Assembly: GCF_900156345.1 (NCBI RefSeq)
Contig: NZ_FTPP01000001.1
Location: 1,054,001 to 1,118,000, forward strand
Reading direction: 5' to 3'
DNA from: Pontibacter indicus
GTDB taxonomy: Bacteria > Bacteroidota > Bacteroidia > Cytophagales > Hymenobacteraceae
Length of the DNA stretch: 64,000 nucleotides
The notes beneath the pieces were generated by a model. It saw only the letters and a program-made list of their open reading frames with translations. It did not search any database and was not told where the DNA came from. This document shows positions 21,690 to 23,281 of this stretch, piece after piece; the first letter of the stretch is position 1; every line of letters begins with the position of its first letter. A program made the position numbers and the translations under genes.

Positions 21690-22405
21690 AAGAATCGCGC
21701 TAAGTCCTTTAATGAAATGGTTCCTTCGTAGATGGCTTTTCCGATGATGGCCCCTTTTACGCCGATCTCCTGCAGCTCCTCCAGGTCCTGCACGGTGGTA
21801 ACGCCGCCGCTGGCAATGACTTGGGCCTCTGGTAGTGTCAATTTCAGATGACGGTAGGTGTTCAAGGACGGGCCTTGCAGCATGCCGTCTTTGCTCACGT
21901 CGGTGCAGATGAACAGACGGGCGCCGGTTTTGAGATAGCCGGACATGAAATCCTGCAGCGGGTACTTGCTCTCCTCGGTCCAGGCGCTGATGGCGATGTT
22001 GGTGCCTTTGAAGTCGGCCCCGATGATGATCTTCTCGTGCCCGTACTCCAGCAGCCAGTTCTTCACTTTCTCCGGCTCCCGCACCGCAATACTGCCCGCT
22101 GTGATTTGCGCCGCACCTGCGTCAAATGCCTGCTGCACTGCCTCGTCTGACTGTAAACCTCCTCCAAAGTCAATGGTGAAGCCGGTGTTGGTTGCGATGT
22201 TTTCCAATACGGCCAGGTTGACCGGTTTGCGGGCACGGGCACCGTCCAGATCCACCAGGTGCAGGCGCTTGATGCCGTGTGCCTCGAAACGTTTGGCCAC
22301 TTCGAGCGGATTGCTGTCGTAGGTGGTCTGGCGCGCAAAGTCGCCCTCGGTGAGGCGCACGCACTGGCCGCCGATCAGGTCAATGGCTGGGATGATCTCC
22401 ATCAT
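21683..22405 (-). CDS. hisA: ProFAR isomerase
   Basis: 240 residues, TIM barrel homologous to His[22 protein letters not shown] gives the catalytic Asp around residue 8, and [17 protein letters not shown] gives the second one (around residue 130). Phosphate loops [12 protein letters not shown] and [14 protein letters not shown] are present. It performs the Amadori rearrangement of ProFAR to PRFAR. It overlaps hisH by 4 bp and hisF by 7 bp. Confidence 0.96.
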
Positions 22406-22983
22406 AAGGCAAGGAAGTTTTTGATGATCTGTGAACCGGCAGGTCCGCTTTTTTCGGGGTGAAACTGCGCGGCGTAGAAGTTTTTGTAGTGTAAGGCAGC
22501 TGAAAATGGCTCCGGGTAAGACGTCTGCGCAATAGTATGCTCACTCACCGGCACATAATAGCTGTGCACGTAATAGGCATACTCGCCTTCCGCTATACCT
22601 CCAAACAAAGGCGATTGTAGCTTCTCCAACTGGTTCCAGCCCATGTGCGGCACCTTCAACTCCGTCTGGAAGCGCTTCACCGGCAAAGGAATAATGCCCA
22701 GCATGTCGGTGTCGCCTTCTTCGGAATGCTGGCAAAGCAGCTGCATACCCAGGCACACGCCAAAGAAAGGCTGCTCGAGCGTTGGCAACAGTTTGTCAAG
22801 GTTACGAGCCTTCAGTTGCGCCATGGCAGAAGAGGCCTCGCCCACGCCCGGGAAGATCACCTTATCGGCCGACTGTATGGTTTCAAAGTCGCTGCTCAGC
22901 GTGGCCTGCACCCCAAGCCGCTCCAGCGCAAACAGCACCGACTGCACATTACCGGCTTTATAATCAACTATAACGAGATCCAT
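22402..22983 (-). CDS. hisH: imidazole glycerol phosphate synthase, glutaminase subunit
   Basis: 193 residues, class I glutamine amidotransferase. Catalytic Cys in FFGVCLGMQLL (about 77), His and Glu in AAQFHPEKSG (about 177-179), and an N-terminal VIVDYKAGNVQSV. Supplies ammonia to HisF. First structural gene after the hisL attenuator (terminator at 23071-23100, 88 bp before the ATG). Confidence 0.96.
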   Translation of the reverse strand: MDLVIVDYKAGNVQSVLFALERLGVQATLSSDFETIQSADKVIFPGVGEASSAMAQLKARNLDKLLPTLEQPFFGVCLGMQLLCQHSEEGDTDMLGIIPLPVKRFQTELKVPHMGWNQLEKLQSPLFGGIAEGEYAYYVHSYYVPVSEHTIAQTSYPEPFSAALHYKNFYAAQFHPEKSGPAGSQIIKNFLAL

Positions 22984-23021: not shown

Positions 23022-23062
23022 AATCCTGAAAATCTTTTAATCCAGAAAATCCTGATCCAGAT
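23022..23062. repeat. dispersed 41-nt element, copy 1
   Basis: A 41-nt word built from AATCCTGAAAAT/AATCC units. An inverted copy sits at 25410-25450 on the other side of the S9 peptidase gene, 34 of 41 positions identical by eye. It lies in the hisHAF-IE leader transcript between terminator and hisH. Confidence 0.55.
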
Positions 23063-23070
23063 AAACAAAA

Positions 23071-23100
23071 AAAGCCTGACTCTGTTCGGAGTCAGGCTTT
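23071..23100 (-). terminator. hisL attenuator terminator
   Basis: A perfect 12-bp stem with a 6-nt loop (arms AAAGCCTGACTC and GAGTCAGGCTTT), followed on the minus strand by a T-rich run. It lies between the His-rich leader ORF and hisH. Its loop side (plus-strand TTCGGAG, 23085-23091) is exactly complementary to plus-strand CTCCGAA at 23148-23154 in the leader ORF, giving a 7-bp antiterminator that cannot form together with the terminator. Confidence 0.85.
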
Positions 23101-23121
23101 TGGAATATACGCATTAATTAA

Positions 23122-23205
23122 CTACATGCTAGTCCATAGGCAGATGGCTCCGAAACTTTTGCTTCGTGCATGATGATGATGCAGATGTGCCAATGTGCCT
23201 TTCAT
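23122..23205 (-). CDS. hisL: histidine operon leader peptide
   Basis: A 27-codon ORF beginning MKGTLAHLHHHHARSKSF and ending TSM-stop. It has five His codons (all CAT), one at 23185-23187 and four in a row at 23170-23181. The candidate antiterminator arm begins 15 nt after the last His codon and lies before the stop codon, so a ribosome stalled for charged tRNA-His would leave it free, while one reaching the stop would cover it and let the terminator form. This is the classic attenuation logic. Not listed by simple ORF callers because of its length. Found by reading; protein itself needs no function. Confidence 0.85.
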   Translation of the reverse strand: MKGTLAHLHHHHARSKSFGAICLWTSM

Positions 23206-23210
23206 GGCTG

Positions 23211-23218
23211 CAAATATA
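23211..23218 (-). promoter_or_regulatory. -7 box of hisL-hisHAF-IE
   Basis: TATATTTG on the minus strand fits TAnnTTTG and ends only 5 nt before the hisL ATG, so the leader mRNA would be almost leaderless. The -33 position reads AAGG, a poor match to TTTG. Confidence 0.5.
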
Positions 23219-23281
23219 AGTGGCGTGTAGCGTAATACCTTGTTTCTAGCTGATTCTTTTTTAGTCCAGGGTATAATCCCT

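Follow-up and report, generated by a model that had tools for sequence, protein, structure and literature searches.

A putative near-leaderless histidine attenuator upstream of hisHAF-IE in Pontibacter and its tyrosine-codon relatives in Cytophagales

INTRODUCTION

Upstream of the hisH-A-F-IE genes of Pontibacter indicus lies a tiny His-rich open reading frame (ORF), which raises the question of whether the cell uses it to sense histidine shortage. The answer that we develop here is that it very probably does so in Pontibacter. In Escherichia coli and Salmonella, hisL encodes a His-codon leader peptide that is followed by a terminator and a mutually exclusive antiterminator. The best-studied attenuators are those of Proteobacteria, in which leader translation starts at a Shine-Dalgarno site, and a single leader can sense several amino acids matching the products of its operon, as do E. 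coli thrL (Thr and Ile) and ilvL (Ile, Val and Leu). Bacteroidota are, to our knowledge, described as being without Shine-Dalgarno sequences.

The locus was analysed within a stretch of 64,000 nucleotides of P. indicus DNA (contig NZ_FTPP01000001.1, positions 1,054,001 to 1,118,000), hereafter the window. A sequence-only reading of this DNA had proposed a histidine attenuator upstream of hisH, and the present analysis follows up that proposal by folding and by comparison among genomes.

RESULTS

A His-codon leader, a terminator and alternative pairings upstream of hisH

Read along the minus strand, the locus comprises a TAnnTTTG promoter box, a 27-codon ORF, an intrinsic terminator and hisHAF-IE, in that order. 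The strand reads TATATTTG-CAGCC-ATG..., continues with the ORF and with GCCTGACTCCGAACAGAGTCAGGC-T7, and then reaches hisH. The features are as follows:

23211..23218, minus strand: Bacteroidota -7 promoter box TATATTTG, ending 5 nt upstream of the leader ATG
23205-23122, minus strand: His leader ORF MKGTLAHLHHHHARSKSFGAICLWTSM, 27 codons, the same kind being present in 50 of 50 genomes
23170..23187, minus strand: sensor codons His-Leu-His-His-His-His (3-6 His codons in all 50 leaders)
23161..23166, minus strand: arm 1, CGAAGC, with partner GTTTCG (pause hairpin 1:2)
23147..23156, minus strand: arm 2, GTTTCGGAGC, whose CGGAG/TTCGGAG is predicted to pair with arm 3 as the antiterminator
23133..23141, minus strand: arm 2b, GCCTATGGA, predicted second antiterminator helix with partner TTCC-AAAAGC
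23124-23122, minus strand: leader stop codon TAG
23085..23097, minus strand: arm 3, the terminator 5' arm GCCTGACTCCGAA, which holds CTCCGAA, the partner of arm 2
23074..23082, minus strand: arm 4, the terminator 3' arm GAGTCAGGC, placed by folding and alignment
23073-23067, minus strand: T-run of the intrinsic terminator (T7), kept in relatives
22402..22983, minus strand: hisH, the first gene presumed to be controlled (TIGR01855, 213.1 bits, cut-off 105.4)
22405-21683, minus strand: hisA (TIGR00007, above cut-off)
21689-20931, minus strand: hisF (TIGR00735, above cut-off)
20710-20105, minus strand: hisIE (NF002747, above cut-off)

HisH, HisG, TrpE, HisA, HisF and HisIE of the window, and the phhA product discussed below, were identified against profile libraries. 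The leader has five His codons, a CAT at 23187-23185 and a run of four at 23181-23170. TTCGGAG (23154-23148) lies 15 nt downstream of the last His codon and upstream of the stop, CTCCGAA (23091-23085) is inside the terminator 5' arm, and the core terminator arms span 23097-23089 and 23082-23074. These positions agree with the sequence-only reading, which had described a 27-codon ORF upstream of hisHAF-IE with five His codons, four of them consecutive, two exactly complementary heptamers, and an arm that begins 15 nt past the last His codon and ends before the stop. The terminator with its T-run is also where it had been placed, but the helix given there as 12 bp folds as 13 bp when A-U pairs are counted. 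Its interpretation as ribosome-stall attenuation is supported, since parts, spacing and conservation fit a His-codon stall attenuator.

From sequence and folding, we consider it highly likely that hisHAF-IE is controlled by a ribosome-mediated transcription attenuator that senses charged tRNA-His. Transcription would begin about 1 nt upstream of the leader ATG, and the ribosome would load at the extreme 5' end. With plentiful histidine, the ribosome would reach the stop codon and mask arms 2 and 2b; the free arm 3 would pair with arm 4 and transcription would end at the T-run. When histidine is scarce, the ribosome would stall at the His run and mask arm 1, and arm 2 (TTTCGGAG) and arm 2b would pair with arm 3 and the bases preceding it; the terminator would then be blocked and hisHAF-IE transcribed. 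Of this scheme, we infer the start site, leader translation, stalling, termination and the histidine response.

Conservation and covariation of the leader

Regions upstream of hisH were taken from 50 Pontibacter-group genomes and their leaders aligned (alignment A1, 50 rows). A His-codon leader is found in 50/50, with five His codons in 40, four in 7, three in 2 and six in 1, and arm TTTCGGAG with a terminator downstream is likewise found in all 50. The His codons and the complementary segments, whose loss in relatives the sequence-only reading had named as the observation that would count against it, are therefore kept across the group. Comparison of sequences settles in this way that the leader is real; the mechanism is a known one, as had been said, and this leader is a genuine member of the class.

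Nine arm-2 columns of A1 (GTTTCGGAGC minus its first G) and nine columns of the terminator 5' arm (columns 94-102) are without a single change in the 50 sequences, while the terminator 3' arm has 14 changes, spread over four columns. Such a contrast between an invariant 5' arm and a drifting 3' arm would be expected of a 5' arm that also pairs elsewhere. Three pairs of the second antiterminator helix, which joins GCCTATGGA to TTCC/ATCC-AAAAGC, have changed on both sides (3 cells; 8 of 500 shuffles equal this). No both-side changes were seen within Pontibacter (50 sequences) in the outer antiterminator helix of 5 bp, the pause hairpin or the terminator, so that the evidence from covariation comes from the second helix and from the comparison of His and Tyr leaders described below. 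The parts, their conservation and their alternative pairings are thus documented by sequence and comparison.

Folding and ribosome position

The 146-nt leader folds at -47.9 kcal/mol compared with -31.7 kcal/mol for shuffled sequences (z -4.7), and none of 200 dinucleotide shuffles was as good. Taken alone, the exact 7-nt complement TTCGGAG/CTCCGAA is a moderate clue, being matched by 92 of 5000 dinucleotide shuffles. A complementarity score that allows G-U pairs reached p ≤ 0.05 in 2/50 hisH leaders versus 49/50 trpE leaders; the corresponding counts were 11/20 for phhA-hisH leaders, 5/8 for other phhA leaders, 4/42 for Pontibacter phhA leaders and, among 16 other hisH leaders examined, 2 of the 14 that have a terminator. 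Because this single-leader score is not significant for most hisH leaders, the case for their antiterminator rests on conservation and covariation rather than on length.

Ribosome position was modelled by freeing the RNA from 14 nt past the first base of the A-site codon and folding it up to arm 3, the antiterminator being counted as formed when at least 4 of its 5 outer pairs were expected. By this measure, stalling at the first His codon gave the antiterminator in 33 of the 50 leaders, stalling at either the middle or the last His codon gave it in 48, and the RNA without a ribosome in 2. For a ribosome at the stop codon the count is 0/50, a trivial result, as the ribosome itself masks arm 2 there. 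The pause hairpin (1:2) is present in the minimum free energy structure of the window leader and is conserved; without a ribosome, pairing of arm 1 with arm 2 is partial, with 1.8 expected pairs on average.

The shortness of the arm 2/arm 3 complementarity would also suit another kind of leader-peptide switch, in which the His ORF is translated and control is exerted via Rho or via hisH translation, with no choice between terminator and antiterminator. Another mode does seem to be used at hisG, whose leader has His codons and a T-run terminator in only 11/50 genomes. At hisH, however, a T-run terminator follows the leader in 49/50 genomes with a 650-nt slice and in 50/50 with a longer one; the single miss (L021) has its leader outside the shorter slice, and the distance from leader to hisH reaches about 900 nt in some genomes. 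This, together with an arm 3 that is constant while arm 4 drifts, makes such a switch improbable here.

A predicted start at the leader AUG

For the terminator-antiterminator attenuator, the promoter box provides an estimate of where the transcript begins. The end of the TAnnTTT[G/A] box is 5 nt from the leader ATG in 43/50 genomes and 4-8 nt from it in 50/50. In the passages of the Flavobacterium psychrophilum transcriptome study that deal with promoters, the sigma-A box is placed at -12 to -5 (PMC9723704); the same spacing would put the start here 1 nt upstream of the AUG, or at the AUG when the spacing is 4. By this analogy the hisH mRNA probably begins no more than a few bases away from the leader ATG, with a 5'UTR of about 1 nt, and would be nearly leaderless. 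A -7 box 3-9 nt upstream of the leader start is found in 50/50 Pontibacter hisH leaders and at 16/24 other places with hisH alone (those with a His leader), and in 12/21 phhA-hisH leaders, 8/52 phhA-alone leaders and 2/42 Pontibacter phhA leaders. Leaderless mRNAs amount to 5.5% in F. psychrophilum (PMC9723704) and 5'UTRs shorter than 10 nt to about 3.7% in Bacteroides thetaiotaomicron (PMC7366714), according to the passages of those reports on 5' ends. An mRNA that apparently opens at the leader AUG, in a phylum with few leaderless mRNAs, departs from the textbook cases.

Operon setting and residue specificity

The window has, in order, hisGDCB (38851-34559), the trp operon with a DAHP synthase gene (33537-25856), and hisHAF-IE, which is preceded by a divergent S9 peptidase gene (plus strand, from 23317). 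The hisB and hisH genes of Rufibacter and Sabulibacter share 1 base (L342, L344 and L346, with the same ORF ends at L352). No such leader was found within 1500 nt of hisH in 11 loci of these two genera (L342-L349 and L351-L353, with L350 left out as a Pontibacter locus), three of which have a His-rich ORF about 1200 nt from hisH, upstream of hisB or at the hisB start. The joined hisB-hisH of the sister genus and the gene order of the window indicate that the hisH attenuator acts on a half of the his operon that became detached.

Residue specificity was scored in the 650 nt upstream of each gene from ORFs of 10-70 aa, a residue passing when present at least 4 times in 12 aa; the test discriminates rare residues only, as Leu passes in 37/50 hisH and 40/42 phhA regions. 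His passed at hisH in 47/50 genomes, at hisG in 50/50, at trpE in 0/50 and at phhA in 1/42. Two of the three failing hisH genomes (L036 and L047) have 3 His, and the third is L021, with its leader outside the slice. Tyr passed at phhA in 42/42, at hisH in 0/50, at hisG in 3/50 and at trpE in 0/50. Trp passed at trpE in 1/50, at hisH in 0/50 and nowhere else, the run at trpE being of three (TGGTGGTGG in 50/50). Two further leaders are present in the window:

33666-33577, minus strand: Trp leader MIQNLLHTAWWWHVTQSIVNRPAMLDIRS upstream of trpE, with a T-run terminator at 33550-33519
39056-38958, minus strand: second His leader MNKTTLNSILFTSTAAPVACGSAAHHHFHHSS upstream of hisG, with no clear terminator

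In the trpE leader, GTGAACAG is complementary to the terminator sequence CTGTTCAC, and the WWW codons are present in 50/50 Pontibacter-group genomes. At the hisG leader, a TTCCTC-GTAA-GAGGAA hairpin holds the stop codon in its loop. A His-rich leader at hisG is found in 50/50 Pontibacter-group genomes and in 20/20 other genomes of the family; 6 of those 20 have the strict stop-hairpin pattern, and looser forms, judged by eye, have the stop codon elsewhere. We considered, from the conserved stop-codon hairpin, that the hisG leader might act like the hisH leader, and set this aside in view of its few T-run terminators. Downstream of the hisG leader, several Rufibacter and g3 genomes (L395-L399, L388, L389 and L394) have a TAtcTTTG-like box, possibly a second hisG promoter.

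A tyrosine-codon sibling upstream of phhA

Within the family, a covariance model built from the 50 hisH leaders (R1) matches Tyr-run leaders of the same layout upstream of an ORF of the phenylalanine 4-monooxygenase family (phhA). The number of family genomes with a match at E ≤ 0.01 (98/150) was ruled out as a measure of the spread of the leader, since the weaker matches are mostly generic terminators. Among 26 such matches (6 in the own genome, 20 in others), five precede a phhA-like ORF (four with a Tyr run, L106 without), one (L096) is a leader-like remnant, and the others are generic terminators and one tRNA-like stretch. In the own genome, the hisH leader is the sole strong match and the phhA leader is absent from the 19 matches.

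The identity of phhA was verified with NF008877 (cut-off 247), against which the own-genome product (L138) scores 257.7 bits and that of L415 scores 269.1; 12 other phhA products, from matches of the second model described below, are also above the cut-off. PF00351 is found in 42/50 Pontibacter-group genomes, all 42 with a Tyr-rich leader and a T-run terminator. Most of these leaders are longer, and among the R1 matches listed the Pontibacter phhA leaders recognised are those of G041 and G045. Close resemblance is therefore limited to the Tyr leaders found in a few genomes of Pontibacter and Rufibacter and to those in other families. Pontibacter phhA leaders may form a separate line, most of them being longer, lacking a -7 box near the start (present in only 2/42) and being missed by the hisH model. 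In the own genome (G000:C8 near 1971312), the Tyr-rich leader MHTPAAIATLSLPLPLGTVLLHAVSADCYRAAYYCYGYYYRCSTALSQAIRRLINRT lies upstream of phenylalanine hydroxylase; it has the terminator GCAGAGC-GAAA-GCTCTGC-T6, exceeds the hisH leader in length and is among those that the hisH model misses.

Twelve His and four Tyr leaders were aligned together (alignment A2; its row G067 looks, by eye, one base misaligned at arm 2). Here, the antiterminator has 3 both-side-changed cells in 2 pairs (equalled for cells by 10/500 shuffles, for pairs by 74/500), the terminator has 5 such cells in 2 pairs (cells 2/500, pairs 179/500), and the pause hairpin has 1 double change (46/500). The Tyr leader of G045 has concerted substitutions in three arms, G to A in arm 1, C to U in arm 2 and G to A in arm 3. 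The arm-2 bases GTTTYGGA are retained in three of the four Tyr leaders, and G059 reads its arm-2 bases in another frame (PFRNRMRVF versus RRFGVGCVC), which argues that in this case the RNA and not the peptide is conserved.

The last observation also bears on the view that the product of the ORF is a functional micropeptide rich in His, such as a metal-binding one, and that the terminator is unrelated to it. The C-terminal part of the leader, ARSxSFGAxCLW, is indeed conserved, but it coincides with arms 1, 2 and 2b, the Tyr relative G059 departs from its frame, and the composition shifts from His to Tyr with the operon, all of which leaves a micropeptide very unlikely. Just as unlikely is an ordinary terminator of some other transcript beside a chance His-rich ORF: GCCTG...CAGGC stems are common generic terminators, several of which R1 matches in the family, but the upstream S9 peptidase gene is divergent, so that no minus-strand gene needs a terminator, and the leader is conserved in 50/50 genomes with a nearly fixed promoter spacing.

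Leader codons and gene content across Cytophagales

For the attenuator, a wider sample was obtained by searching 291 genomes from the order with a covariance model (R2) built from A2 and hence trained on both His and Tyr leaders. Matches at E ≤ 1e-4 were found in 24/291, six of them Pontibacter hisH leaders. The other 18 comprise 13 Tyr or Tyr+His leaders upstream of phhA (including G059, a training row, and G063, close to training row G067), four His leaders at hisH (family f68) and one false match in a coding region (L425). Among the phhA and hisH places listed, phhA stands immediately upstream of hisH in many genomes.

We then compared hand-picked places, fetching 20 with phhA adjoining hisH, 20 with phhA not adjoining hisH and 20 with hisH without adjoining phhA; together with the earlier loci this gave 24 phhA-hisH, 68 phhA-alone and 74 hisH-alone places. 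A leader was picked when Y+H was at least 5 in 12 residues. This yielded a leader at 52/68 phhA-alone, 21/24 phhA-hisH and 51/74 hisH-alone places, followed by a T-run terminator in 51, 19 and 43 cases, respectively. Of the fetched places, 16 of the 20 with non-adjacent phhA had no such leader and one (G294) was doubtful; 3 of the 20 adjacent ones had none. The ORFs of G294 (phhA alone) and G451 (phhA-hisH) are both doubtful and have no terminator.

Leaders with at least two Tyr and at least two His account for 0/52 at phhA alone, 18/21 at phhA-hisH (G451 doubtful) and 7/51 at hisH alone. Six of the last seven are Pontibacter ORFs other than the verified leader, the 50 verified Pontibacter hisH leaders having at most one Tyr each, and G405 (MSYYQTVAYVHHRR) is a real exception with both residues. 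Outside Pontibacter, 16/24 hisH-alone places have a His leader with the box 3-4 nt upstream of the ATG, and 8/24 have none. These counts are not independent, as 42/52 phhA-alone leaders are from Pontibacter and 14/21 phhA-hisH leaders come from two genera; counted by genus (without G294 and G451), at least two His occur in 0/6 at phhA alone and in 5/7 at phhA-hisH (exact one-sided p 0.016). Genus g92 has both states, Tyr+His in G316 (phhA-hisH) and Tyr in G270 (phhA alone). The exceptions are g109, with Tyr only and a phhA-hisH gap of about 100 nt that contains a TATTTTTG box, and g146, with 4 Tyr and 1 His. The gap is 12-32 nt in five g156 loci and 135 nt in G316.

In the sampled Cytophagales, the leader codons follow the genes: Tyr codons at phhA alone, usually both at phhA-hisH, and His codons at hisH alone. 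Compared with thrL and ilvL, it is Tyr and His that are combined, on phhA-hisH, and single-sensor forms occur where the operon holds one pathway. On balance we favour, with some reserve, a single ancestral near-leaderless attenuator for Tyr and His supply in Cytophagales, whose sensor was rewritten with operon content and which governs the split his half in Pontibacter. A Tyr run would serve phhA alone, which makes tyrosine, a dual Tyr+His sensor phhA-hisH, and a His run hisH alone. A single T/C change separates a Tyr codon (TAT/TAC) from a His codon (CAT/CAC), and each rewriting step could therefore be a single transition. The covarying arms would have been retained as RNA, and in Pontibacter the module would have come to govern the split-off his half.

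DISCUSSION

The series of Tyr, Tyr+His and His leaders amounts to a natural codon-swap experiment that reveals the sensor codons, and it allows a direct test of the way in which an attenuator switches from one amino acid to another. The series further suggests that, in part of the order, a tyrosine-responsive phenylalanine hydroxylase acts as a biosynthetic enzyme. Beyond the sequence-only reading, the analysis adds the near-leaderless start, as judged from promoter spacing, the second antiterminator helix, the split-operon setting, the Tyr sibling at phhA and the trpE and hisG leaders.

The hisH leader resembles the Proteobacterial his leader (RF00514; E. coli and Salmonella hisL) in its His-codon peptide, terminator, exclusive antiterminator and downstream histidine genes. 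Unlike in RF00514, arm 2 of the Pontibacter leader lies within the coding part of the 27-codon ORF, the leader appears nearly leaderless behind a Bacteroidota -7 box, and the genes that it would control are the detached hisHAF-IE rather than hisG onward. RF00514 has no match in the window and is absent from 20 sub-threshold matches at 23050-23260. The Bacteroidota trp leader family RF01692 (Bacteroid-trp; Weinberg 2010, PMC2864571) is an amino-acid leader of Bacteroidota like the hisH leader, but belongs to a trp system; the hisH leader is unmatched by it even at lax thresholds (23050-23260), and the trpE leader matches over the full length but weakly (24.3 bits, gathering 49).

The sequence-only reading had called the hisH leader unlisted. 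This is correct as regards Rfam, where no his family matches the leader at gathering or lax thresholds, but leader-peptide attenuation of amino-acid operons in Bacteroidota had already been published in general terms: the F. psychrophilum transcriptome gave clues for leader peptides upstream of amino-acid biosynthesis operons in the same phylum, in passages that name no operon or codon (PMC9723704). The his attenuators known from some Firmicutes, which were described separately, have similar parts in another phylum, with 3-5 consecutive His codons and a terminator and antiterminator upstream of his genes, and the main text on them contains no word that begins with 'bacteroid' (PMC9413887). The pertinent passages of PMC4833913 and PMC2965389 name no such Bacteroidota case. 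Among the papers listed in searches of the PMC literature, we recognised neither a Tyr or Tyr+His leader at phhA nor this his attenuator. The mechanism is known, and its form, apparently near-leaderless and with a sensor rewritten between Tyr and His, looks new.

Several leader-like stretches lie at the margins of this family. Hymenobacter-type phhA leaders (L139-L141) have no Tyr run, which means that Tyr sensing is not common to all phhA leaders of the family. L139 and L141, which precede phhA in genus g5, have a leader-like ORF, ..RPxxDGVGLLCRYGS, without a Tyr run, and L141 has complementary sequences, GGAGTCGGGC and, within a terminator, GCCCGACTCC. L106 (G054) likewise has a leader-like ORF upstream of phhA with no Tyr run. 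L096 (G036:C27:213653-213767) lies about 2 kb upstream of hisH; it is leader-like but degenerate, has a GCCTGACTC terminator and precedes a gene that, by eye, resembles a magnesium transporter.
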